Shown: one piece after another, positions 3,001 through 63,400 of the stretch
Position numbering within the stretch: the stretch's first letter is position 1
How the letters are laid out: each line of letters begins with the position of its first letter
NCBI GenBank assembly: GCA_020744425.1
Contig: JAGMUV010000023.1
Coordinates: 1,149,915 to 1,213,914, forward strand
Direction of reading: 5' to 3'
DNA: 64,000 nt
Source of the DNA: Dactylonectria macrodidyma
Taxonomy: Eukaryota > Ascomycota > Sordariomycetes > Hypocreales > Nectriaceae
Made by a program: the position numbers and the translations under genes
Notes under the pieces: generated by a model
Told to the model about the DNA's origin: nothing
Seen by the model: the letters and a program-made list of their open reading frames with translations, nothing else
Database searches by the model: none

Positions 3001-5278
3001 AAAGAATTCTTTATAATTATTAATACCTTTAAGGAATTCTAATACTATTTCTTAAGAAATAAATATAAGATTAAAGTCTATATAGACTATAAGAATATCT
3101 TATACTTTACTATTACTTAAGAACTTAGTAGATAATAATTATAATATACTAAATACTTTTTAAAATTCGACTATACTATTATCTATTATAAAGGCTCAGA
3201 GAATAGAAGAGCTAATACTATTAGTTAATAATATAACTTTAATAATAGTAAAAGAATAGTTAATAAATAACTCTTATACTTTATACTTAAAGGATACTTA
3301 AAATAGAAATTTATTATAAAAGTCTAGAAAGGAATAATACCTCTATAGCCAGAACACTTAGAACTAATCCAGAACGACAGACTAGCACTCTATTAGATAG
3401 ACTGGGCCTAAGGTTATACTAAGAAAGTTATATATAAAAATAGACTTATTATTGTCCTTAATAGCTTCTAATACTAGATAGTATAAGACTTACACATAGA
3501 AGGACTATATAATAGAGATATTAACATACTATACTAATATATTATAAAAACATACTAAACCTATAGCCTTAATAAAGCGCTCTATAATGCAATCGAAGAA
3601 TGCCTAAAGTATTACCTGCTAAAATAACTACTAGTAGAATACTTAAAGAAGCTAGAAGAACTAGATGACTACTGATTTAACTAAGTTACTAATAACCACT
3701 CCTAAAAAAGGCATATTAAGCGAAGTAAAGACAGTAGAATTATTATACTAGATAATATAAAGAATTACCTCGCATAATACTATCACAACCTAGCATATAA
3801 TAGAACACCTGCCTAAGCCATTATGCAAATAGAGGAGTTCTATATAATAGAAAATATATATAGAATTATAAGGGACTTAATAGCATAATGCTCTAAATGC
3901 TCTAAAGACTAATTATATATCTCTAGAATGATTACTATAATATAGCACTTAGTAGAATAAGGAAACCTACTACTTAAATAAATTTAGGAATATAATAATA
4001 TATTACCTAAAGGCAGACGAATAAAGAAATAGTAAGTTCTTAAAGAATTGTAATACAAACTTATATAGGAAATATACAAATACTTACTATACAGATACTA
4101 GAGAGTTAATAAAACCCTTAATAGAGTTAGAATGACTTATAAATTTCCTAAGATAAAGATAGTAATTTGAACTATTATTTAATAATATAATCTTTATATA
4201 AAAACCAAGGTATAATACTATAAATTATATAAAGAATTATAATCCCTATTAGTTATAACCTGACTATAGGACTCTATTATAATGGATTTCATTATGAAAC
4301 TACTCTTATTAAAGGACCCTGCAATCAGAACCCTTTATAATAGTATTCTTATTATTATAAATAGACTTATGAAATTTTCCTATTTTATATTTTATTAAGA
4401 ATCGATAGATATAGAGCAGTTTGCTTATATCTTCCTAAGAAATATTATTAATACTTATAGGCTACTCTTAGAAATTCTCTTTAATAAAGGACCTCTATTT
4501 GCTTCTAAATTTTAGTAAGTACTAATAGACTATTTAGAATTAAACTACTAACTCTTTACAGCTTTCTAACTATAGACTGATAGTTAGATAGAATAAATAA
4601 ACTAAATATTAGAATAATACCTTTAATACTATATTAATTATAAATAAAATGATTAAGTTAAGAAACTACTAACTATATAATTAAGCTATAATATAGCTAT
4701 TTATAAAAGCACGAAACTCACTCTAATATATACTAACTTTAGATTTACTTCTAATGCTTATAAAGTAAGCTAAAATAGACTAATTATCTTTAAAGCCATC
4801 CTTATATTAGAAAAATTAAAAAATCTATATAAAGAAATAAAGACTAAACTCAAATTTATTAGAAATCAGATAAAAAAATACTATAATAAAAAATGGATAA
4901 AGGGACTATCCTTCTAAAAGGGAGATATAGTATACCTTACTATAAAAAATATTAAAATAAAACAAGAAAATAAAAAACTAGACTATAAATACATTAGACC
5001 TTATAAAATTATTAAAAAAATCTTAGAAAATAACTACTAATTAGACTTATTACTAAAAGTCAGACTTTATTCAGTCTTCTATATCTTACTTCTTAAGACT
5101 ATAAAAGATACGATTTATACTAAGTATAGTAATAAATATAAGACTAAGGTTAAAAGAATAGAGGAATATAAAATTAAAGAGATCTATAATATATAAGTTA
5201 GGAATAATAAGACTAAATACCTTATTAAATAGAAAAACTACCCTAAAAGTAGCAATTAATAGGAACCCGCTAAAAACC

Positions 5279-5950
5279 TTACCTATATATAATGCTTACT
5301 AAAGAACTTTTACTAATAACACTAGGTTTGATTAAAGACCTAACGTTACTAAAATCGCCCCTAAGACTAAAAGTAGACCAATCAGTCTCCTCTAGGACGC
5401 CTAATAACCTTAGGTTATAAACCACCCATTTTTCATAAGCCTTTAATATAAGAAGGACCCTATCCTCCTTATCTAACTCCTGCATCCTCTGCTTAAATAA
5501 ATTAGAACCCCGCTCCTTCACTTTCTTCTTAATCTTCTTAATCTAAGCTAAGTAATTTACTACTATTACTAGAAATGCTTACAGTTCAGCTAGCTAGTTA
5601 TAGATAAGTATAATTTAATTACTAGCTTCCTCCTCCTTTTATATAAGCTTTTTCTATTAATTAATCAGCCTATTTACTAAGGTAATATTAGTATAAATCC
5701 ACTAAGGAAGGAAGGAATACCTTATATAAAGATACTATATAGATACTATTATAAGACTGATTATAATAAATACATTCTTTATAATAATTAGAATAACTAG
5801 TATTCTCTATCTAATACTTAATCTTATGCTTAAAGCAATAAGTATAAGGCATATTAGTAATATAGCTATTAAGCTTAGTAAAAGTTTAAAGAGATTTGCA
5901 CTTAGTTATCTTTTTCATTTTTTTAATTACTTTCTTTACCTTCTGCTTTA
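5279..5950 (-). pseudogene. Antisense Zn2Cys6/coiled-coil accessory gene relic of family 2 copy A
   Basis: Between pol and the 3' LTR the minus strand keeps an 80-residue open stretch (5279-5521). Upstream of it, at about 5735-5852, is a ghost zinc cluster. Reading TAT (Tyr) as mutated TGT (Cys), the spacing is Cx2Cx6Cx10Cx2Cx6C, with two cysteines still present and four turned to tyrosine. G-to-A change on this strand is what RIP produces. Position, orientation and domain order match the intact antisense gene at 59379-59983 of family 1. Start and end are approximate because of stops. Confidence 0.6.
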
Positions 5951-42330: not shown

Positions 42331-42445
42331 TAATGTCTTCCTTTTATTAGTCCTTATTCTTAAGGCTTATAAGTTAGTTATTCTAAGTTTTTCTTTAGTT
42401 TATTTAACCTTCTTTTATAATTATTTTTTTATAATACTAATAGTA

Positions 42446-43047
42446 TGTTAAAAGTGAAATTACAGTCTGCTATATACTATTACTATCTTTATAAACTTAT
42501 TAAAGAAATAGGCTCTAAGGTTATTAAGTGCTTAAATTATACTTAGTAAAAGCTAAAGTATAAAATGCTTAAAAGCATTTCTTATTATTCTGAATGCATT
42601 TATTATAGATATTCTTATAATAGTTTAGAAGAGTCGATCTCTATATATAAGTGCTTATTCTTACTTCTTCTGATTTTTGCTTATACTAACTGAGCAGCTT
42701 CCCATTTAATAGCTAAGAAATATCACTTAGAGTCTAAAGAGGAATAAGTAGAAGAAGAGTTAATAGAGTTATAATAGTAAATAAATAAGCATTTATCTTA
42801 TCTAATATAGCTTTATTATTAATAAAAATAGCTTTAAGAAAGAGGTATAGAGATAGTGCATTAGGATCTTCATTCTCTAAACGAGCTAGATAAGGCAGAG
42901 TGCTAAAAGGTTAAGGCAGTCATTAAGGTCTAGGCCTATAGTAAAGTAAATACAATTAATTAGTTTACTATATTTAATGTTAGTATTACTTCTTTATCTT
43001 CTAGTATTATGCATAGAATGTCTTTAGTAAATGCTATATATAAATAA
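42446..43047 (+). pseudogene. Antisense Zn2Cys6/coiled-coil gene relic in degraded family 1 copy
   Basis: Starts at an ATG and reads through stops as MLKVKLQSAIYYYYLYKLI, then EIGSKVIKCLNYT, YKMLKSISYYSECIYYRYS and, later, EEELIEL. Residue for residue this follows the intact antisense gene (59379-59983). Some zinc cysteines are now tyrosine (TGT to TAT). The intron is still there: the donor GTGAGT has become ATAAGT and the acceptor GAGCAG remains. The stop TAA is at the position of the intact TGA. Length 602 bp against 605 bp. The gene therefore predates the RIP of this copy. Confidence 0.75.
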
Positions 43048-51437: not shown

Positions 51438-52447
51438 TATTATAACTAAGTACATAATAGCACGCTTACCCGAACTACTATGTAAATAGAGGAATTCTAT
51501 AAAATAGAAAATATATACAGAACTATAAGGGACTTAATAGTATAATGCTCTAAATGCCTTAAGAACTAACTATATATCTCTAGAATAATTACTATAATAT
51601 AACACTTAGTAGAATAAGGAAATCCACTACTTAAACAAATCTAGGAGTATAATGACATACTACTTAAAGAAGAATGAATAAAGAAGTAATAAGTTCTTAA
51701 AGAATTGCAGTATAGACTTATATAAGAAATTTATAAATACTCACTATATAGACATTAGAGAGTCTATAAAACCCTTAATAGAGTTAGAATAACTTACTAA
51801 TTTCCTAAGATAAAGATAGTAATTACTACTATTATTTAATAATATAACCTTTATATAAAAACTAAGGCATAATACTATAAACTATATAAAGAATTATAAC
51901 CCTTATTAATCATAACCTAACTATAAGACTCTATTATAATGGATTTTATTATAAAGCTACTCCTATTAGAGGACTCTACAACTAGAACCCTCTATAATAG
52001 CATTCTTATTATTATAAATAGACTTATGAAATTTTCTTATTTTATACTCTATTAGGAATTAATAAATATAGAGCAGTTTGCTTATATCTTTCTAAGAAAT
52101 ATTATTAGTACTTATAGGCTACTTTTAGAAATTCTTTCTAATAGAGGACCCCTATTTACTTCTAAGTTTTAGTAAGTACTAATAGACTATTTAGGATTAA
52201 ACTACTAACTCTTTACAGCTTTCTAACTATAGACTGATAGTTAGATAGAATAAATGAATTAAATACTAGAATAATACTTCTAATACTATATTAATTATAA
52301 ATAAAACGATTAGGTTAAGAAGCTACTAACTGCATAGTTGAGCTATAATATAGCTATTTATAAAAGTATGAAGCTTATTCTAGCCTATGCTAATTTTAGA
52401 TTCACTTCTAATGCTTATAATGTCACGACCCGTGCAACGTAGACGCC

Positions 52448-52459
52448 TGACGTCACGTG
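52448..52459 (+). promoter_or_regulatory. Overlapping CRE-like TGACGTCA and E-box CACGTG
   Basis: TGACGTCACGTG combines a palindromic CRE (52448-52455), the site of ATF/CREB-type bZIP factors, with a CACGTG box (52454-52459). It lies about 150 bp upstream of the TATA box, so stress-responsive bZIP control of the retrotransposon is plausible but unproven. The site is duplicated in the 3' LTR. Confidence 0.5.
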
Positions 52460-52604
52460 GCCCCCACAAATTTCTCACCAATTACGAGCGATCACAGCGA
52501 ACTGTGGAGCGATCACCGCGATCACTCCCGTGATCACCGTGATCACTTCTGTGATCACTGCGATCACCCCTGTAACTAAGGTGATCGAACCTCATACTAC
52601 ATAG

Positions 52605-52612
52605 TATATAAA
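52605..52612 (+). promoter_or_regulatory. LTR TATA box
   Basis: TATATAAA in the middle of the 5' LTR; transcription would begin some 30-50 bp downstream, around 52635-52655, which defines the start of the R region. Confidence 0.6.
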
Positions 52613-52858
52613 CCCGAGGAACTGGCTGTCACTAGGACACCAGCTCCTCAGCTATCAATACAACTTGGTTACCTCAATCTACTCTGACTGCTACGCATCA
52701 TCGTACATTGACTATTACCTAACGTAACACTACGACTACCGCTCAGTAAGTGTGACCTAACCGTTCTGCTAACATAGACCCTGGTCTATCCCTTAGGAAC
52801 CCTTTCCGAGCTACCCTATACCACGTACAGGTTAGCCTGGGAACACGACCGTTACACG

Positions 52859-52876
52859 TTGATAGCTCTTGTTCAG
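52859..52876 (+). other. Primer-binding region, probable self-priming
   Basis: TTGATAGCTCTTGTTCAG begins two bases after the LTR. Its first nine bases are the perfect reverse complement of AGCTATCAA at 52650-52658 in the R/U5 part of the LTR. It does not start with TGG, so it does not look like a normal tRNA 3'-end site. The Tf1/sushi branch of chromoviruses is known to prime by folding back its own RNA 5' end. Family 2 has the corresponding RIP-altered pair TTAATAGCT and AGCTATTAA. Confidence 0.6.
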
Positions 52877-52916
52877 ACGGTTACCTTATACGCTGAGCAA
52901 TAACCGACAAGCTGTT

Positions 52917-55433
52917 ATGGCACCCGCAACTCCCACTACCAGCTCTGGCTCCTCCAAGGGCAAGGGACCCGCTACTCAGCGTAGGGCCCAGGACCCAGAC
53001 GGAGACCGAGACATGGACTCGTCCGGAGACGAGGATGAAGAGATCATCGCACTTCGTGCTGAGAACCAACGCCTCAGCAACGAAATGATCAACATGTCTA
53101 AGCTGAACCACGAAGCGCACGAGCACTACGAAGCGCAGTTCGCGGCTCTTCGAACTCAACAGGAGAACCCTGTTCGAGACCCGAACGTCGCAAACACCAT
53201 CGCTGCTCTTGAAGCACGAATCGTGGAGTTGTCTACAGCTCAAACCGCTGCTAGGAACGAACAGCAGCGCCAGGCGGAACAATTCACCGGGTTTAACGCA
53301 CCAGCCCAGCAGGCACGACCTCGTGACGCTGGAGAAACCCTCAAACCGCCAATGCCAACTAAGTTCGACGGTACCCCCAAGGACCTTCGCGAGCACCTCA
53401 CGCAGCTCAAATCATACTTCATGTACTACCCTACCATGTTCGCGAACGAAGAACTGAAGGTCAGACATGCAATGAGCCTGCTCGAAGGAAAGGCCCTACG
53501 CGGACTCGAACCAATCTTGAGAGACTTCGTCGAGAACCCCTACGATAGTCGCCGTGTCGAAACCAAGGAGCTCTTTGGGAACTTCAGACTGTACGAAGAA
53601 AAACTCATCGACACTTACGGCGAATGGGACGAGAAACACGACGCTCTCAAAGCGATCCGGAAACTGGATCAAAAGCGAGCAATGTCGGAATATCTCACGG
53701 AATTTCGATACCACTTGGCCAAGCTCAGTTGGGACGAAGAAACAACAATCGATGAGTTCTACAGAGGAATGAAGGATGAGGTCAAAGACGAAGTGTCCAA
53801 GATCCTGACACTACCCACCACCTTCAACGCTTACGCCAAACTGTGCGTCACCATCGATAATCGACTCTTCGAACGACGAATGGAAAAACGAAACGGCAAC
53901 GCCAGCAGTAGCGGCTGGAGAAAGAAGAACTATGCCAACCAGGGGAAACAACGAACCCCCAACACTTCTTACGGTACTGCAGCAGGACCAATGGAACTCG
54001 GAGCGGTGCAGCAACGTCACCAGCAGGGAAAGAAGACGTTCAAATGCTACAACTGCGACGAACCAGGACACCTTTCACGCGACTGCAAAAAACCAAGGAG
54101 GGAAAAGAAACCATTCAAGCCCATCACCACGCCTACCCGCAACATCAATTCAGTCAAGATGCAAAAGGACGACGAACTCCCAGTCCGATCCATCAACATG
54201 ACCCGAAGCGGCTTCGACGGAACCTTCAACGGCGCAGCCCCACCGTGGGACTGGATGGAAGACCTGAAATACACCGACAACCCCAGAACAAAGGAACTTC
54301 TGGAACCAGGAGCGATCAGGCCAGGCACAAACTCAAACCTGACCGGATGGAAGCAAATACGAGAACAGGAGGAAAAGAATCCTGACAGACGAGAGCACCG
54401 CCTGCGAATAAAGCGAGACAGCTACCACAGGCATAAGGACGAGCATAAGGAGAAAAGGGATCAAAAGAATGGGAAGAAACCTGCCAAGCAATGGACAGCC
54501 ATCCCAGGCACACAAGCCACAGGATACCCACCTATCGCGCCCCGGCCTAACAACGAAAGTCATACCATCGCTATGGTCCGACAACTCAGGGAGAATCCAA
54601 CGCAAATGGAAGATTTCGACGACTTCGAGATCCCAGACCGACAACCCGATCACGAATGGACCGACACGAACAGGCCACAAATGCGACCTGCCATGATGGA
54701 CAGCGGTGCAACACGCAGCTACTTTCCACGACAAGTTAGCGCAGGACGAGACGTACACCAGGCAAGGGAAGCCGGGTACAACATCGAGGACGAAGACATC
54801 CTCGCACCAGCAGACGAATACCCGGAATCCGATGATGACCTTCGAAGCATCACTCCGGAAGAACAAGACGCGCTAGTACGCGTGATGGAAGACGTCCAAA
54901 TCGAACAGTTCGCCAGGGAAACACAGGACCCTACGGAAGAAGCGGACATATACATCCGAGCTCTACATCGGAACGACGGACGAAATCCACGAAACCCAAC
55001 CGAACGACGACTCAGGGGAGACGACCCTCGAGTACACTGGGAACACCGGAAACACAAGGAAATCTCATGGGCTTCGTGCATCTACCAACAATGCACCACG
55101 CACCTCGCGGAGAAGCTCAAGCAAGACTGTTTCCCGGTACGAGTAAATGGTCAACCAGTGATGAAACCCTACGAGGTAGAAGATATGGAAGACTACCGAG
55201 TAAGGAAATGGTACGAAAACCTAGGGATCGCACAACTCATGGAGTACGATGAGGATTACCCTACGAAGTGTCAACACCTCGATGCCAAATTCACCGATTG
55301 CCAACGACCCGAATGCCAGATACATGTATACGACAAGGTCAATGCGTGGCACGAGCACAATCGCAGACCGACATTTCGACCCTCACGAGACGGAACAACG
55401 GAGAATACAAAAAACTCCCGACGCCATCTGTAA
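52917..55433 (+). CDS. Gag polyprotein of the intact chromovirus
   Basis: 838 residues from the ATG at 52917, the first ATG downstream of the LTR in this frame. An N-terminal disordered, acidic part and a short coiled coil (IALRAENQRLSNEMI) lead to a retrotransposon Gag domain at about residues 145-310 (LREHLTQLKSYFMYY; LLEGKALRGLEPIL; MSEYLTEFRYHLAKLSW). A CCHC zinc knuckle, CYNCDEPGHLSRDC, lies at residues 377-390. A long acidic tail of about 440 residues follows, unusually long for Gag, and includes MMDSGATRSYF with a protease-like DSGA at residue 595. The ORF ends 16 bases after the slippery site that gives access to pol. It would form the virus-like particle shell and bind the RNA. Confidence 0.92.
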   Translation: MAPATPTTSSGSSKGKGPATQRRAQDPDGDRDMDSSGDEDEEIIALRAENQRLSNEMINMSKLNHEAHEHYEAQFAALRTQQENPVRDPNVANTIAALEARIVELSTAQTAARNEQQRQAEQFTGFNAPAQQARPRDAGETLKPPMPTKFDGTPKDLREHLTQLKSYFMYYPTMFANEELKVRHAMSLLEGKALRGLEPILRDFVENPYDSRRVETKELFGNFRLYEEKLIDTYGEWDEKHDALKAIRKLDQKRAMSEYLTEFRYHLAKLSWDEETTIDEFYRGMKDEVKDEVSKILTLPTTFNAYAKLCVTIDNRLFERRMEKRNGNASSSGWRKKNYANQGKQRTPNTSYGTAAGPMELGAVQQRHQQGKKTFKCYNCDEPGHLSRDCKKPRREKKPFKPITTPTRNINSVKMQKDDELPVRSINMTRSGFDGTFNGAAPPWDWMEDLKYTDNPRTKELLEPGAIRPGTNSNLTGWKQIREQEEKNPDRREHRLRIKRDSYHRHKDEHKEKRDQKNGKKPAKQWTAIPGTQATGYPPIAPRPNNESHTIAMVRQLRENPTQMEDFDDFEIPDRQPDHEWTDTNRPQMRPAMMDSGATRSYFPRQVSAGRDVHQAREAGYNIEDEDILAPADEYPESDDDLRSITPEEQDALVRVMEDVQIEQFARETQDPTEEADIYIRALHRNDGRNPRNPTERRLRGDDPRVHWEHRKHKEISWASCIYQQCTTHLAEKLKQDCFPVRVNGQPVMKPYEVEDMEDYRVRKWYENLGIAQLMEYDEDYPTKCQHLDAKFTDCQRPECQIHVYDKVNAWHEHNRRPTFRPSRDGTTENTKNSRRHL
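55409..55415 (+). promoter_or_regulatory. -1 ribosomal frameshift slippery heptamer A AAA AAC
   Basis: The gag frame reads AAA at 55410-55412 and AAC at 55413-55415, so the heptamer is in the exact phase X XXY YYZ. A -1 slip moves ribosomes into the pol frame, where the next codon is CTC at 55415. The gag stop is 16 bases downstream (55431-55433). No strong hairpin lies at the usual 5-9 base spacing; a possible nested stem (55453-55491) is about 37 bases away. Confidence 0.8.
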
Positions 55434-58400
55434 CAGAGCAACAGATAGGCACAGAGCTAGGGGAAGCGGAACCCCTCGAAACAAGAGCTCTATGTGCGAC
55501 CAAAAGCGCACAAACGACAAAACGGTACCTAGAAATACAGGTACGAATCAAGGGAAACTGGCTGCCCGCCTTGGTAGACAGCGGCGCAGAATTCAATTAC
55601 ATCCACCCCGCAGTGGTGAATACATTGAAACTTCCATGGAAGGACAAAGCAAATCCGTACAGAGTACAAAACCTCGAAGGATCCCCGTTCGCTTACGACA
55701 GCGGAAGAATAACCAAAGAGCTTGATCATCTCAAGGTTTTCGTTGAAGGACGAAACGAAGGAATCTCGTTCGATGTTATACCTGTTGCGCACCACGCTTT
55801 GGTTCTAGGGTACCCATGGTTGAAACGAGTTAACCCAATGATAAACTGGAGGACTGGCCAAGTGAACTTCGACGACGTCGATGATCACTCCTCTTGGGAA
55901 TCAGATTCAGACGACGACACGAGATCTCAAACTTCGACTGACCACGGCACCAGCGAAGTATCGGCGAAAGAAACGACAGAAACTTTCCCACCCCGAGGCA
56001 CGAAATACAAACACCGCAAAGCCCGACGAAGCAAGACACGCCGCACCATCGCCTTTGTACGAAGTCAACTGACAAAACTCGACAAAGACCTTGCAGAAAT
56101 GAAGAAACAATCGGAAGCAGACGACAGGCTGAAAAACATACCACCTGCTTACCGCATCTATGAGAAACTGTTTGCCGAAGAACTGGAAACAGGTCTACCC
56201 GAACACAGTGAATGGGACCACGACATTGTGTTGAAAGACGGAACTTCACCCAAGTTCTTCAAACTTTACAACCTCAACGAAGTTCAGCTTCAAGCGCTAA
56301 AGGAATACCTCGAAGAAATGCTACGAAAAGGATACATCAGGATATCAAAATCCTCCGCAGGTTACCCTGTCATGTTCGTTCCCAAGAAGAACGGCAAACT
56401 CCGACTAGTTGTGGATTTCCGACAGTTGAACGCCATCACGAACAAAGACCGAACACCGTTACCCCTGATTACCGAACTGAGGGATCGCCTTCACGGTAAG
56501 AAGTGGTTTACGGCGCTCGACCTAAAAGGCGCTTACAACTTGGTCCGCATCAAGCCTGGAGACGAATGGAAGACAGCGTTTCGAACCAAGTTTGGATTGT
56601 TCGAATACCTGGTAATGCCTTTCGGACTCACAAACGCACCGGCGACCTTCCAACGGATGATCACCAACGTTTTGAGAGAACACCTCGACATTTTCGTCGT
56701 ATGCTATCTAGACGACATCCTGATCTTCTCCGACACGGAAGAAGAGCACACGGAACACGTCCACAAGGTGTTGCAAAAGCTGCAAGACGCAAAACTACTC
56801 GTTGAACCAGAGAAGAGTAAGTTCCACGCACAGGAAGTGGACTTCCTCGGACATACCATCCGACCAAACGAGATCCGAATGGACAAAAAGAAAATCGAAG
56901 CTGTCAAGGATTGGCCGAGACCTGACAAGAGTGTCAAGGAAGTACAGAGCTTCCTAGGATTCGCCAATTACTACCGAAGGTTCATTCGCGGATTCAGCAA
57001 AATCGCGAAACCCTTGACAGAACTCACGAAGAAAGAAGTAGAATTCAGATGGAACCCAAAGGCCCAGAAAGCCTTCAACGACTTGAAACAAGCCATCCTC
57101 AGTGAACCCGTTTTGGCAACCTTTGACCCAAAACGACCGATCGAATTGGAAACCGACGCTTCCAACTTCGCCCTGGGAGCCCAGATTGGACAACGGGACG
57201 ACGAAGGAAACCTACACCCGATCGCGTTCTACTCATGCACACTGAAGGGAGCTGAACTCAACTACCCCATCTACGACAAGGAATTCTTGGCGATAGTCAA
57301 TTCTTTCAAAGAATTCCGACACTACCTCTTAGGAAGCGAACACCAGGTCACCGTGTACACGGACCACAAGAACATTTCACACTTCGCTACCACCCAAGAG
57401 CTCAGTGGAAGGCAACTTCGCTACGCGGAGTACCTATCAGAATTTGACTACGTCATCATCCACAAGAAAGGCTCAGAAAACGGACGAGCCGACGCGATAA
57501 GTAGACGACCCGACTTCGAAATAGACATACCCAAGGTCAACGAACAGGTATTGACCTACACCCCCGAAGGACATCTGAAGCAGAAGTACATTGCGGCAGT
57601 AAGCGAGTCCAGGCTACCGGAGGACTTGCTGGAACGACTACAGACGCCCGAACAAAGCTTCGAACAATGGATACACGACATTCAACCAGCCCCGAGAGAA
57701 CTACTGTGGCAGGAAGGAAAAGCAGTCTTGACAGGATCACAAGGATCCCAAGCAATCGCTTACTTCCATCAGGGCAACCACCACGGGAACCCTTGGACCC
57801 TAGCCAAGAAACTCAGCCAGTATTTCCACGGCGACCTCACATCAGCATGCATCAGTCACATGGGACAATGCAATCGATGCCCCCACGATCTCATCGACCA
57901 ACACGCAAAGGAGTGCTGGGAGATAGGCGATCACCGAAACTGCGAACCCAACAAGGTACGAAAGAAACTCAAATGGGTCGACGAACTCGACAAAACAGTC
58001 CAAGTCGCAGCAACAGTGTCCCAAGAAACACTTCACGAACGAATACGGGAATACAATCAGACATACGAGATGGACAGAGTAACAGGAGCACCCTGCCCAA
58101 TTCCCGAATCACAACTCGAACCACGGAGGCTACGAGTTCCCCCGGAATTACAGAAACCGCTAGTACGAGATATGCATGTACATCTCCTACACGGACACCA
58201 AGGAATCAACAAAACCCTTAAACGAGTCAAAACGACATACACTTTTCCTAGAATGAAGAAAATCGTCACGGAAGTCATCAAGGAATGCTTACCATGCGAT
58301 AAAACAAAGGCACGACGCCACAAACCATATGGAGAGCTACAACCCCTACCAGTCGCTGAGCGACCATGGGACTCCATCACTATGGATTTCATTACGAAGT

Positions 58401-59458
58401 TACCCCTGTCAGAAGACCCAGCGAATGGTACCTTCTATGACAGCATTCTTGTCATCGTGGACAGACTCACGAAATTTTCCTATTTTATACCTTATCACGA
58501 ATCAACGGATGCCGAACAATTCGCCTACCTGTTCCTACGGAACATCGTCAGCGTACACGGCTTACCAACGGAGATCCTAAGCGACAGAGGACCCCCGTTT
58601 GCATCCAAATTCTGGCAAGCCTTGATGGCCCAGATGGGATTGAATCACCGCCTTACAACGGCATTCCGACCACAGGTCGATGGACAGACGGAACGCACAA
58701 ATCAGATACTCGAGCAGTATCTTCGATGCTACATCAACTACGAACAAAACGATTGGGTAGAAAAGTTACCAACGGCACAGCTAAGTTACAATACTTCGGT
58801 ACATGAAAGCACCAAGCTCACGCCATCCTACGCCAATTTCGGATTCACACCTGACGCGTACCACACGCCACGCGACGGAATCATCAACCCGAAAGCAATC
58901 CTGACGTCAGACAAGTTGAAGAATCTCCACGAAGAAATGAAAACCGAACTCGAATTTGTACGAAACCAAATGAAAAAATATTACGACCAGAAAAGGCTGG
59001 AGGGACCATCCTTCTCGGAAGGGGACATGGTCCTGTTAGCAACAAAAAATCTCACAACGGACAGACCAAGCAAAAAACTCGACTACAAATTCATCGGCCC
59101 CTACAAGGTTCTGGAGAAAATCTCAAAAAACAACTACAGGTTAGACCTACCACCAAAGGTCAAGGTACACCCCGTTTTCCACGTATCACTACTGGAACCT
59201 ACGAAAGGAACCATCATGGTCAACAACGGCTACAACCACGAACCGGAAGTCGAATCACCAGAAGAGTACCACGTCGAAGAAATCCGCGACATGAAGAGAA
59301 TCGACGGTAAAACAATGTACCTCATAAAGTGGAAAGACTACCCTGAAAGCGAAACATCGTGGCAACCACCGGAAAACCTCATCCACGCGCAACGTCTACT
59401 GAAGACGTTCCATGCGCAACGCCGGAAGATGAAGAAGCAGCACCAAAATCAAACATAG
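55415..59458 (+). CDS. Pol polyprotein: protease, reverse transcriptase, RNase H, integrase, chromodomain
   Basis: Open from 55268, but expected to be made by -1 frameshifting at 55409-55415, giving 1,347 residues after the slip. Protease: LVDSGAEFNYI at about residue 53 with LGYPWL further on. Reverse transcriptase: PEHSEWDHDI onwards, active site YLDD encoded at 56705-56716. RNase H: ELETDASNF near 57150, then TDHKN and GRADAISRRP. Integrase: zinc domain HLLHGHQG to CLPC near 58170-58300, catalytic core with MDF near 58384, SDRGPPF near 58584 and QTERTNQ near 58690. The GPY-like GPYKVL is followed by a C-terminal chromodomain (YHVEEIRDMKR..YLIKWKDYPESETSWQP). No frame break was found. The chromodomain is expected to guide integration to methylated-histone heterochromatin, which fits insertion into an older repeat. 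Confidence 0.94.
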   Translation, partial: LPTPSVTEQQIGTELGEAEPLETRALCATKSAQTTKRYLEIQVRIKGNWLPALVDSGAEFNYIHPAVVNTLKLPWKDKANPYRVQNLEGSPFAYDSGRITKELDHLKVFVEGRNEGISFDVIPVAHHALVLGYPWLKRVNPMINWRTGQVNFDDVDDHSSWESDSDDDTRSQTSTDHGTSEVSAKETTETFPPRGTKYKHRKARRSKTRRTIAFVRSQLTKLDKDLAEMKKQSEADDRLKNIPPAYRIYEKLFAEELETGLPEHSEWDHDIVLKDGTSPKFFKLYNLNEVQLQALKEYLEEMLRKGYIRISKSSAGYPVMFVPKKNGKLRLVVDFRQLNAITNKDRTPLPLITELRDRLHGKKWFTALDLKGAYNLVRIKPGDEWKTAFRTKFGLFEYLVMPFGLTNAPATFQRMITNVLREHLDIFVVCYLDDILIFSDTEEEHTEHVHKVLQKLQDAKLLVEPEKSKFHAQEVDFLGHTIRPNEIRMDKKKIEAVKDWPRPDKSVKEVQSFLGFANYYRRFIRGFSKIAKPLTELTKKEVEFRWNPKAQKAFNDLKQAILSEPVLATFDPKRPIELETDASNFALGAQIGQRDDEGNLHPIAFYSCTLKGAELNYPIYDKEFLAIVNSFKEFRHYLLGSEHQVTVYTDHKNISHFATTQELSGRQLRYAEYLSEFDYVIIHKKGSENGRADAISRRPDFEIDIPKVNEQVLTYTPEGHLKQKYIAAVSESRLPEDLLERLQTPEQSFEQWIHDIQPAPRELLWQEGKAVLTGSQGSQAIAYFHQGNHHGNPWTLAKKLSQYFHGDLTSACISHMGQCNRCPHDLIDQHAKECWEIGDHRNCEPNKVRKKLKWVDELDKTVQVAATVSQETLHERIREYNQTYEMDRVTGAPCPIPESQLEPRRLRVPPELQKPLVRDMHVHLLHGHQGINKTLKRVKTTYTFPRMKKIVTEVIKECLPCDKTKARRHKPYGELQPLPVAERPWDSITMDFITKLPLSEDPANGTFYDSILVIVDRLTKFSYFIPYHESTDAEQFAYLFLRNIVSVHGLPTEILSDRGPPFASKFWQALMAQMGLNHRLTTAFRPQVDGQTERTNQILEQYLRCYINYEQNDWVEKLPTAQLSYNTSVHESTKLTPSYANFGFTPDAYHTPRDGIINPKAILTSDKLKNLHEEMKTELEFVRNQMKKYYDQKRLEGPSFSEGDMVLLATKNLTTDRPSKKLDYKFIGPYKVLEKISKNNYRLDLPPKVKVHPVFHVSLLEPTKGTIMVNNGYNHEPEVESPEEYHVEEIRDMKRIDGKTMYLIKWKDYPESETSWQPPENLIHAQRLLKTFHAQRRKMKKQHQNQT

Positions 59459-59983
59459 TGGACCAATCGATCGCATCCACCCCACCATGGGCCTGAACCT
59501 CGATGACCGCATCAGCCTCTTGGCGCTCCGCCTCATCCAACTCGTCCAGGGAACGAAGCCCCCGACGCACCATCTCCACGCCTCTCTCTTGAAGCTGTTT
59601 TCGTTGACGACGAAGCCGCATCAGACGAGACAAACGCTCATTCATTTGCTGTTGCAATTCTATCAACTCCTCTTCCGCTTGTTCCTCCTCGGACTCTAAA
59701 CGGCGCTTTTCAGCCGTCAGACGGGAAGCTGCCCGGTCAACACAAAAACACAAAATTTGTCAAGCAGGAACAGACACTCACATACGGAGATCGACTCCCC
59801 CGAGCCGTCACAAGAACGTCCGCGACGAACGCACTCAGAACAGCGGGAAATGCCCTCGAGCATTTTGCACTTCAACTTCCGTTGAGCGCAATTTGAGCAC
59901 TCGATAACCTCGGAGCCCATTTCTTCAATAAGTTCGTAGAGACGATGACGACGCGCGGCGGATTGCGATTTCACCTTCGACAT
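59379..59983 (-). CDS. Antisense spliced gene: Zn2Cys6 plus coiled-coil protein
   Basis: Located between pol and the 3' LTR on the opposite strand. Exon 1 59782-59983, intron 59729-59781 (53 bp, GTGAGT..GGGCAG), exon 2 59379-59728; 552 bp, 183 residues. Splicing is the only way to join the two frames, and the phase fits exactly. Residues 28-58 form CSNCAQRKLKCKMLEGISRC followed by SECVRRGRSC, spacing Cx2Cx6Cx8Cx2Cx6C, the binuclear zinc cluster pattern of fungal DNA-binding proteins. Exon 2 opens with a strongly charged coiled coil (EEEQAEEELIELQQQMNERL). It ends 80 bp inside pol, tail to tail. It is probably transcribed from the 3' LTR or its flank. The intron survives retrotransposition because the genomic RNA is the other strand. 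Function unknown: perhaps a regulator or silencing antagonist. Confidence 0.78.
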
Positions 59984-60082
59984 GCTGTCAGCATTACGGA
60001 AAAATAATTACAGGGGAAGGTTGGACAAACCAGGGAGAAACTTGGGACGGCCGACTTGTAGGCCTTGGGGACAAGGACCAAC

Positions 60083-60092
60083 GGAGGGGAGA
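60083..60092 (+). other. Polypurine tract before the 3' LTR
   Basis: GGAGGGGAGA five bases before the 3' LTR; the same GGGGAGA stands at this position in both family 2 copies. It is the expected plus-strand primer. Confidence 0.65.
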
Positions 60093-60097
60093 CATCG

Positions 60098-60533
60098 TGT
60101 CACGACCCGTGCAACGTAGACGCCTGACGTCACGTGGCCCCCACAAATTTCTCACCAATTACGAGCGATCACAGCGAACTGTGGAGCGATCACCGCGATC
60201 ACTCCCGTGATCACCGTGATCACTTCTGTGATCACTGCGATCACCCCTGTAACTAAGGTGATCGAACCTCATACTACATAGTATATAAACCCGAGGAACT
60301 GGCTGTCACTAGGACACCAGCTCCTCAGCTATCAATACAACTTGGTTACCTCAATCTACTCTGACTGCTACGCATCATCGTACATTGACTATTACCTAAC
60401 GTAACACTACGACTACCGCTCAGTAAGTGTGACCTAACCGTTCTGCTAACATAGACCCTGGTCTATCCCTTAGGAACCCTTTCCGAGCTACCCTATACCA
60501 CGTACAGGTTAGCCTGGGAACACGACCGTTACA
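60098..60533 (+). repeat. 3' LTR of the intact element
   Basis: 436 bp, no difference from the 5' LTR found by eye. It is followed by the TATAA target duplication and the continuation of family 2 copy B. Confidence 0.95.
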
Positions 60534-61059
60534 TATAAAGCAAGTTATAATAGATTGATTATCCCTAAAGCTATCCTTATATTAGAAAAATTGAAAAATC
60601 TATATAAAGAAATAAGGACTGAACTCGAATTTATTAGAAACTAAATAAAAAAATACTATAATAAGAAATGGATAAAAGGACTATCCTTTTAGAAAGGAGA
60701 TATAGTATACCTTACTATAAAAAATATTAAAATAAAATAAGAAAATAAAAAACTGGACTATAAATATATTAGAACTTATAAAATTATTAAAAAAATCTTA
60801 GAAAATAACTACTAGTTAGACTTACTACTAAAAGTCAGACTTTACTTAGTCTTTTATATTTTACTCCTTAAGATTACAAAAGATATAATTCATACTAAGT
60901 ATAATAATAAATATAAGACTAAGGTTAAAGGACTAAAGGAATATAAAGTTAAAAAGATCTATAATATATAAGTTAAGAATAATAAGACTAAATACTTTAT
61001 TAAATAGAAAAACTACTCTAAAAGCAGCAATCAATAGGAACCTGCTAAAAACCTTACTT

Positions 61060-61690
61060 ATATATAGCGCCTACTAAAGAACTTTTACTAATAATACTAG
61101 GTTTAATTAAAGACCTAATATTACTAAAATCACCTTTAAGACTAAAAGTAGACTAATTAGTCTCCTCTAGAATACCTAATAACCTTAGGTTATAAACTAC
61201 CTATTTCTTATAAGCCTCTAATGTAAGAAGGACCCTATCCTCTTTATCTAATTCCTATATCTCCTGCTTAAATAAATCAGAACCCTGCTCTTTTACTTTC
61301 TTCTTAATCTTCTTAATCTAAGCTAAACGGTTTACTACTATTGCTAAAGATGCTTATAGTTTAGCTAGCTAGTTATAGATAAGTATGATTTAATTACTAG
61401 CCTCCTCTTCCTCTTATATAAGCTTTTTCTACTAATTAATCAGCCTATTTACTAAAGAAATATTAGTATAAATTTACTAAGTAAGAAAGGGATATCTTAT
61501 ATAAAGATATTATATAAATACTATTATAAGACTAACTATAATAAATACATTCTTTATAATAATTAGAATAATTAGTATTCTCTATCTGATATTTAATCTT
61601 ATGCTTAAAGTAATAAGTATAAGGCATATTAGCGATATAGCTATTAAGCTTAGTAAAATTCTAAAGAGATTTACATTTAATTATCTTTTT
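61060..61690 (-). pseudogene. Antisense Zn2Cys6/coiled-coil gene relic of family 2 copy B
   Basis: Counterpart of 5279-5950. The minus strand still shows the ghost zinc cluster at about 61507-61624 with cysteines changed to tyrosine and one stop added. Boundaries are approximate. Confidence 0.55.
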
Positions 61691-61854: not shown

Positions 61855-62238
61855 TATTATAGCCCGGTTTATATAGACTATATAATGTTAACTAAAGCAT
61901 ACTTACTCTACTAATTTCTAACTAATTCTATTAGATTATGATTCTGAACTGTGATCCTAATAATAGATTATAATCTCTAATTATAATCCTAAGGGATAGA
62001 TTACGATCTTAAACTGTAATCTAGTAAGAACACTATTAGTATATAAGCATACTTATTTAGCACTTTTATAGAAATAGCCTTACTAGCTATTAATACACTT
62101 AGTTATATTAAATCTACTATTCTACTATTACTAGATTATAACTTATATTACTTACTATAATGTCCTTAATCTACTTGATTATAAACACTACACGCCTTAG
62201 ACCTACCCTAGAGCCCTAGTATAAGCCTGACCGTTACA
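61855..62238 (+). repeat. 3' LTR of family 2 copy B
   Basis: 384 bp, aligned with 44774-45157 with only C/T and G/A differences noticed. Ends CCGTTACA, followed by TCTAG. Confidence 0.9.
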
Positions 62239-63400
62239 TCTAGCTTCTATAATCACTCTAGTAAGTCATTAAATAACTATAACTTATTTATAACTATAAT
62301 ATATTTTTATTTAAAATATCTTTTAAAGGTATAAGCTAATATTTACTTATTAGTTTTTAGTATATTAACCTTAAAGTTAGGTTATTAACTTATTATATTA
62401 GCTCTTCCGTTTTCTAAGCCTTTCTTATAAATAATAATATAATTAAATTCTAATAGGTATTTTATATAGTAGAGTTATCTTTTACTAAGCTTTTATATAG
62501 TTATAAAGTATAATATATTCTTATAGTCTATATATATAGTGACTTAGTATTCGCTTCTTAAGAAGTAGTATTAGAATTCTTTAAAAGAGTTAATTATTAC
62601 TAAGAATTCTTTATTATAAATAGAGTAGTTAAGTTCAGCTCCCTTTAGTATATATAAGTAGAATGCGATTAGATATAGGTTCCTTTTATTATCCTATTAT
62701 CTAATCTAAACTCTTAGGGCAAAGTTAGAAGCATTAGTTTCTAATTCAATCGATTATCTTAGGTTAAAGGTTATTAAAATGGGTTTACTAAGGATAGCTC
62801 GTTTTAAGTTATTAAAGGCTTTCTAGGCTTTAGTGTTTTATCTAAAGTTTATATCTTTCTTTATAAGTTCTATTAAAGGTTTTATAATTTTACTAAATCT
62901 GTAAATAAACCTTTAGTAGTAATTAGTAAACCCTAAGAAGCTTTATACTTCTTTAATACTTTTATCTAGTTTTAGCTAATCTTTAATAGCTTTAATTTTC
63001 TTTTTATTTATTTAGATCTTATTTAATTAGATAGTATATCTAAGAAAGTTTACTTCCTATGCGTAGAACTTGCTTTTTATTAGTTCTATAAGTAGTTTTA
63101 TATCTTATAGTTTTTATAGGATTATATGTATGTATTTTGTATATTCTTCTTCTATTTTTAAAAAGATTAAAATATTATTAAAATAGTATATAATAAAGAT
63201 ATTTAAATATTCTTTTAGAATATTAGTAATTATTTATTAGAATATTACTAATGCGTTTATAAGTCTAAAGGGCATTATTAAATATTTAAATAGTCTGAAT
63301 TTAGTTCTGAATATAGTCTTCTATTTATCTTTAGGTTTTATATAGATTAGGCTATAAGCATTTTTTAAGTTAAGTACTATAAACCACTTTTTACTATTAT
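62239..63400 (-). mobile_element. RIP-degraded gypsy family 1 element, right part
   Basis: Continuation of the element interrupted at 44773: the sequences on either side of copy B join into one stretch matching about 57570-57680 of the intact element. On the minus strand RNase H and then reverse transcriptase follow, with the YLDDILIF region visible near 63130-63200. The match ends abruptly near 63400 at the position equivalent to about 56495 of the intact copy, so its 5' half (gag, protease, start of reverse transcriptase) is gone or displaced beyond the window. Confidence 0.83.

Follow-up and report, generated by a model that had tools for sequence, protein, structure and literature searches.

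The original paper on brtn, a gene of the Boty-like Ty3/Gypsy elements of Botrytis and Sclerotinia, is said to be that of Zhao et al. in 2011 (Virology 417:248). In HTLV-1, HBZ is a bZIP protein whose mRNA is spliced and transcribed from the 3' LTR, and the U3 of the virus has repeated response elements. Antisense genes lying between pol and the 3' LTR are known from brtn and the Boty-like elements of Botrytis (PMC8365987, PMC7264820, PMC4227169, PMC5987419), and there is a BRTN-like transcript in Monilinia (PMC5987419). In plants, antisense ORFs occur in the elements Grande, RIRE2 and Retand. The TRP28 domain of Retand was predicted to bind DNA and suggested to be a regulator, and the same paper names HBZ as an antisense nuclear protein (PMC11963269). 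In crapaud, an LTR element of Podospora, the variation among subfamilies was concentrated in the U3 upstream of the TATA box, and the authors suggested selection on the promoter (PMC10787394).

We analysed a stretch of 64,000 nucleotides (the window) in which a retrotransposon of the family F1 carries such an antisense gene. It resembles brtn in that a chromodomain gag-pol element has an extra antisense gene between pol and the 3' LTR, the likeness being one of position and element type. The preliminary description suspected that its novelty would be limited, and rightly so, since antisense genes in this place have been published for Boty-like elements. Unlike in the passages on brtn, which do not mention U3 arrays, such arrays varied here together with the gene. 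The plant ORFs are also antisense, located between pol and the 3' LTR and conserved within a lineage (PMC11963269), whereas they belong to other protein families and to another lineage of elements. As in crapaud, the U3 upstream of the TATA box was the variable part (PMC10787394); unlike here, the word "antisense" is absent from the main text of that paper. A literature search (full texts, titles and abstracts, thin on subscription papers) did not find a fungal antisense retrotransposon gene combined with a zinc cluster or with U3 arrays. The family-specific U3 array upstream of the TATA box, which was present in each of F1, F3, F4 and F5, is a new observation.

The F1 element (52421-60533) is a complete Ty3/Gypsy chromovirus with gag-pol between two identical LTRs of 436 bp (52421-52856 and 60098-60533, plus strand), and the 5-bp direct repeat TATAA flanks it. 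The gag ORF (52917-55433, plus strand) has a CCHC zinc knuckle and matched Pfam zf-CCHC and Retrotrans_gag above the cut-off. The pol ORF (55253-59458, plus strand, taken from stop to stop) is in a different reading frame and encodes, according to Pfam, reverse transcriptase, RNase H, integrase and a C-terminal chromodomain. The insertion with its target site duplication (52416-60538) sits in an AT-rich, RIP-damaged family 2 element, and its flanks (51438-52402 and 60534-60833) repeat 3781-4931. The start of the F1 LTR has TGACGTCACGTGG at 60115-60140, a CRE adjoining a CACGTG box upstream of the array; we take the two to be possible sites of host factors.

The antisense gene occupies 59983-59379 on the minus strand between pol and the 3' LTR and consists of two exons and one intron. 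The coordinates, the strand, the 53-bp intron and the small product given in the preliminary description all agreed with our gene model, the product of which has 183 aa. Exon 1 (59782-59983, minus strand) starts with the ATG at 59983 and encodes a six-cysteine, Zn2Cys6-like domain. Its motif, C-x2-C-x6-C-x8-C-x2-C-x6-C at 59810-59899, was the single match of a Zn2Cys6-type pattern scan in the six frames of the window, and none was found in 20 of 20 block-shuffled windows. The predicted intron (59729-59781, minus strand, 53 nt) has the signals GTGAGT, TTGAC and CAG (end GGGCAG). Exon 2 (59379-59728, minus strand, including the stop at 59379) probably encodes a coiled coil, as suggested by the coiled-coil proteins that were weak neighbours in PDB and Pfam, and an acidic tail with a DAIDW motif. 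The last 80 bp of exon 2 overlap the 3' end of pol, and the pol stop and the LTR enclose the remainder of the gene. Without splicing, the exon 1 frame reads through the intron and ends 26 codons past the donor, so a truncated product with the cysteine domain and without the coiled coil is possible. The leader (59984-60097, minus strand) extends from the antisense ATG to the 3' LTR and holds the polypurine tract of the plus strand. At 59983-60000, another ATG (ATGCTGACAG...) immediately ahead of the antisense one opened a short overlapping frame in F1 and F3; in F4, the upstream ATG frame ended at once, in TAATG.

Comparison of the copies argued for selection on the antisense frame. A DNA search of the genome assembly (77.3 Mb in 77 contigs) with a 719 bp query revealed F1-type matches in 22 places, 13 of them identical over 719 bp and 9 at 68-90% identity. 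The copy on contig C13 (L039), 90% identical to F1, had both antisense exons open. Between F1 and this copy, dN was 0.010 and dS 0.402 in exon 2 outside pol (ratio 0.02, 89 codons), and dN was 0.040 and dS 0.392 in exon 1 (ratio 0.10, 67 codons). Eight of the other 10 frame readings of both exons had a ratio of at least 0.71 or no synonymous change; the remaining two low-ratio readings, one per exon, were the sense frame that shares wobble positions, with 4 and 5 stop-bearing codons. In the whole CDS, 15 of the 49 differences were nonsynonymous, whereas 32.9 ± 3.1 were expected at random placement, and none of 20,000 random placements was as low as 15.

RIP makes transitions only, never transversions, and for this reason transversions were counted separately. 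In the alignment of 20 F1-type copies, of which two (L051 and L056) align only partially, transversions occurred at 13 of 53 sites in the intron and, not counting the overlap with pol, at 12 of 472 in the exons (Fisher p 5.5e-8). Within the exons they fell on 8 of 157 third codon positions versus 4 of 315 first and second positions (p 0.025). Alignment gaps followed the same boundary: 36 of 37 were in the intron, one was in the leader and none in the exons. The copies share descent and cell counts overstate their independence; we therefore relied on distinct sites and on the one pairwise comparison. The selection on the antisense gene proposed in the preliminary description was thus supported by the dN/dS ratios and by the concentration of transversions and gaps in the intron, and, judging from these substitution patterns, the antisense frame of F1 almost certainly encodes a protein. 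RIP-damaged copies of F4 were rejected as evidence of selection. Where exon 2 does not overlap pol, C/T polymorphism at CpA affected 0 of 16 sites in these copies, compared with 12 of 24, 8 of 20 and 9 of 23 sites elsewhere, which looks like purging of stops; it was set aside because the F4 intron has the same strand bias (0 C/T, 10 G/A).

RIP is strong in the host, many copies carrying 5-20 stops, and three antisense copies in the window are damaged by it. In the F1-type copy at 42445-43029 (plus strand, the element being reversed), identified by alignment to F1, the preliminary description reported the start, the cysteine scaffold, the intron position and the stop as kept. The ATG, the exon/intron layout and the cysteine positions were indeed kept, but four of the six cysteine codons are TAT, the donor is ATAAGT, and the alignment ends 18 nt before the stop; the positions were retained and the function was lost. 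The zinc-cluster ghost reported in both family 2 copies (5279-5950 and 61060-61690, both minus strand) was confirmed. These copies were aligned in purine/pyrimidine code, which RIP transitions cannot alter, with 100 shuffles. In antisense orientation they matched F1 with z 7.2 and 7.4, and in the opposite orientation no match to F1 was found. The matches were weaker to F3 (z 4.6 and 4.1) and marginal to F4 (z 2.5 and 2.6). Both copies have TGY or TAY at all six cysteine columns, the products expected of TGY under RIP, and the family profile matched 5282-5542 of the first copy at E 0.00015. The RIP-damaged family 2 LTR at 61861-62242 seems, by eye, to hold repeated GATTR-YAATC-like palindromes.

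The preliminary description also proposed conservation across two families, and this turned out to be wider, since F3, F4 and F5 carry the gene as well. These families were found by protein search of this genome, and the counts of places are lower bounds: at least 20 places with exon 1 and without stop for F3, at least 10 with exon 2 for F4 (6 without stops), and at least one locus, degraded, for F5. The 13 identical F1 copies and the stop-free F3 places imply a recent spread with the gene intact. At the pol C-terminus, identity to F1 was 59-60% for F3 and 68-77% for nine of the ten F4 places (50% in the tenth). The antisense proteins were 38% (F3-F1), 40% (F4-F1) and 30% (F3-F4) identical, and the six cysteines were invariant in all four family proteins. 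An acidic tail with D-x-I-D-W (12-14 D/E versus 2 K/R in 57-60 residues, with aromatic residues) ends the F1, F3 and F4 proteins, and the F5 protein stops before the tail. Gene models were drawn by hand from one F3 locus, seven of ten F4 loci and the F5 locus (L065-L068 were left out). In these models the introns were 53 nt in F1, 51 in the C13 copy, 53 in F4, 52 in F5 and 58 in F3; they lay a few to about 20 codons past the last cysteine, and all had TGAC or TGAT 8-20 nt upstream of the acceptor. The donors of F1, F4 and F5 were GTGAGT or GTGGGT in phase 1. The best donor of F3 was GTGTCC in phase 2, a poor one, so the F3 exon junction is uncertain.

Other families differed in the space after pol. 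In F7 (C29 and relatives), whose pol is 32-33% identical to that of F1, a 172-bp LTR follows directly after the pol stop and the polypurine tract, leaving no space for an antisense gene between pol and LTR. F10 (C4 and C42, pol 31% identical to F1) had no room for it either, with the LTR start read by eye. In F6 (C8 and C27, pol 42% identical to F1), pol and LTR are about 1.3 kb apart, and the family profile weakly matched an antisense fragment with CSRCSKNGKPC (E 0.0014 and 0.009 at L069 and L070); no canonical gene model could be drawn for it. The F6 LTR had at least 40 scored matches elsewhere in the genome, mostly of the LTR alone. Just beyond an F7-related element, at C4:410900-412800 (L072), there was an open frame of 369 codons resembling WD40 repeats. 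Outside this genome, viral contigs scanned twice yielded no relative.

The next-best matches in the genome were host-like ORFs of 165 to 684 aa, the better ones at E 0.005-0.03, and capture from a host Zn2Cys6 gene is thus a plausible origin of the antisense gene. It could also be argued that the element just holds a zinc-cluster fragment captured from the host, or produces an antisense RNA, the reading frame being a passenger. Those host-like ORFs agree with this, as does the leader, where transversions were likewise scarce (4 of 114 sites), indicating that the constraint is not wholly coding. However, selection was specific to the antisense frame in both exons and homologues occur in five families, and we consider a mere passenger very improbable.

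The zinc cluster named in the preliminary description stood up in its cysteine spacing and not in profile searches. C-x2-C-x6-C-x5-12-C-x2-C-x6-9-C fitted F1, F3 and F4, the F1 spacing being canonical and the others near-canonical, and F5 has x7 in the first loop. With this spacing, followed by a coiled coil and then an acidic tail, the proteins are like Gal4-type Zn2Cys6 factors (PF00172). Unlike those factors, they are small and encoded by a mobile element, and in the HMM search against Pfam Zn_clus F1 scored 18.7 bits, below the curated cut-off of 21, while F3, F4 and F5 had no match at E <= 1. A four-family profile against PDB sequences retrieved no Zn2Cys6 chain at E <= 1, and two coiled-coil chains alone at E about 0.5. 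The AlphaFold2 model of F1 exon 1 (pLDDT 79.7) has two helices following the CxxC pairs, and its sole Foldseek match in PDB, a weak one (E 1.1, probability 0.54), was the Zn2Cys6 factor Pho7 on DNA; the model of F3 exon 1 (pLDDT 70.1) had no match among PDB structures. Because Pfam matched one of the four families below cut-off, the PDB profile was negative and the structure match weak, the domain is called Zn2Cys6-like and is not a proven member of Zn2Cys6. The antisense protein is nevertheless quite probably a DNA-binding regulator.

Candidate targets were found in the U3. F1 has eight GCGATCAC-like sites at 60165-60265 (5' LTR copy 52488-52588), seven of them exact GYGATCAC and one with a mismatch, just upstream of a TATA box read from the sequence at 60282-60287 (plus strand; 5' LTR copy 52605-52610). 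Their spacings of 21, 9, 12, 9, 12, 9 and 21 bp indicate that the array is partly a 21-bp tandem repeat. A triple-site F1 pattern had 180 matches in the genome on both strands, those listed being in F1-type LTRs, and its reversed control had none. The U3 of F3 has eight CGCTCCC-like sites, that of F4 seven GTGAGCG-like sites and that of F5 five TGTTCGAC-like sites. The arrays were noticed by eye before testing, the LTR families compared were few, seven in total, and the LTRs of F3-F5 were delimited manually at their 3' ends. With both strands counted and one mismatch allowed, the U3 number was reached in 0 (F1), 0 (F3), 0 (F4) and 1 (F5) of 200 dinucleotide shuffles each, whereas in the R-U5 of the same LTRs at least 147 of 200 shuffles reached the count. 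The comparison LTRs of F6, F7 and F10 had no array (49 to 200 of 200 shuffles reached the count), F6 being counted as array-negative despite its weak antisense profile match. Typical Zn2Cys6 factor sites contain a CGG triplet, and none of the F1, F3, F4 and F5 array motifs is one.

The U3 and exon 1 diverged together. In DNA alignments between families (30 shuffles per pair), the U3 and exon 1 each had an identity below the shuffle maximum in all six pairs and exon 2 in 1 of 3, whereas the leader (61-75% among F1, F3, F4 and F5) and R-U5 (66-94%) were above it in all six pairs. F3 and F5, for example, are 94% identical in R-U5 and 75% in the leader, and their U3 and exon 1 are unlike at the DNA level. 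Exon 1 and the U3 thus seem to turn over together, as co-evolution of a factor with its promoter predicts. A plainer alternative is exchange of a neighbouring cassette, as the antisense gene adjoins the U3 and a recombination-like break lies near 59300. The break comes from the C13 copy, in which, per 100 bp and as averages of bins, transitions relative to F1 numbered about 17 at 57900-59299 and about 8 at 59300-60499, and transversions about 4 and about 1. Its pol had 79% protein identity to F1 (dN 0.117, dS 0.770) and contained 20 stop codons in addition to the 502 codons compared. To judge by this step the copy is a mosaic, and the lower divergence beyond about 59300 indicates that the block of antisense gene and LTR has a younger common ancestor than pol. 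This mosaic, at C13:4871-8218 (L023), joins a diverged, stop-filled pol to an antisense gene and LTR near F1, both exons being open.

The protein could instead act after transcription, by binding RNA or cDNA, in nuclear import or in integration targeting, and the U3 arrays would then serve host factors. A role in nuclear import has been suggested for antisense ORFs in a review (PMC7264820), cysteine domains bind several kinds of nucleic acid, and the fold evidence for Zn2Cys6 was weak. This explanation fails to predict that the U3 and exon 1 are both unalignable while R-U5 stays alignable, or that arrays mark the gene-carrying families, and it seems unlikely to us.

Our best model, to which we give a probability of roughly 55%, is that the element encodes an antisense regulator of its own LTR. 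In this model a clade of fungal chromodomain Ty3/Gypsy elements would carry a small transcription factor of its own, encoded antisense. Transcription would begin in or beside the 3' LTR and run back into the end of pol, and the antisense mRNA would be spliced once, joining the six-cysteine domain to the coiled coil and the short acidic, aromatic tail. The protein would most likely dimerize, enter the nucleus and bind the family-specific U3 array. In the 5' LTR this array precedes the gag-pol TATA box, and in the 3' LTR it lies upstream of the antisense gene; as it precedes both units, one factor could drive or tune both gag-pol and the antisense gene. The intron would not be lost in retrotransposition, since it is the sense strand that is packaged as RNA, and there it is no intron. 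In laboratory antisense-intron reporters, an antisense intron likewise persists through the RNA intermediate. The data show the gene, the selection on it, its conservation among families and the arrays; we infer that the gene is transcribed and spliced, that the protein binds zinc and DNA, that the array is its target and that it activates rather than represses. Counting against the model are the poor F3 donor, the weak fold and Pfam matches, the lack of a CGG motif, and the fact that LTRs can have tandem enhancers for host factors. If the model holds, the gene product would be like HBZ a spliced antisense nuclear factor from a 3' LTR with U3 repeats, the intron here being predicted; unlike HBZ, a bZIP protein, it has a cysteine cluster, and the two are unrelated by descent.

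An acidic tail with aromatic residues, such as that of F1, F3 and F4, suits activation. The protein might otherwise be a repressor, a means of copy-number control or a counter to host silencing. A nuclear protein that binds DNA and is read antisense to the element can act against sense expression; HBZ is named as an antisense nuclear protein of this kind (PMC11963269). An antagonist of silencing would pay because host RIP is strong. However, the carriers are the numerous intact copies of F1 and F3, and the tail composition also speaks against repression; we regard these roles as doubtful compared with activation of the element's own LTR. A bolder proposal is that intron-bearing antisense factors occur throughout the clade, each co-evolving with its own U3 array, and that a new family comes into being when factor and enhancer are replaced together, giving a private circuit insulated from other families and from the host. 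We put this forward tentatively, at somewhat less than even odds.

If true, fungal LTR retrotransposons would bring their own promoter-specific antisense factor, beyond being read by host factors. This would offer a mechanism for the fast turnover of the U3 in fungal elements such as crapaud (PMC10787394), and a testable reason for the persistence of antisense genes in Boty-like and plant elements, the function of which is called unknown in the literature. The four families would be ready pairs of factor and site for studying how a DNA-binding domain co-evolves with its sites.
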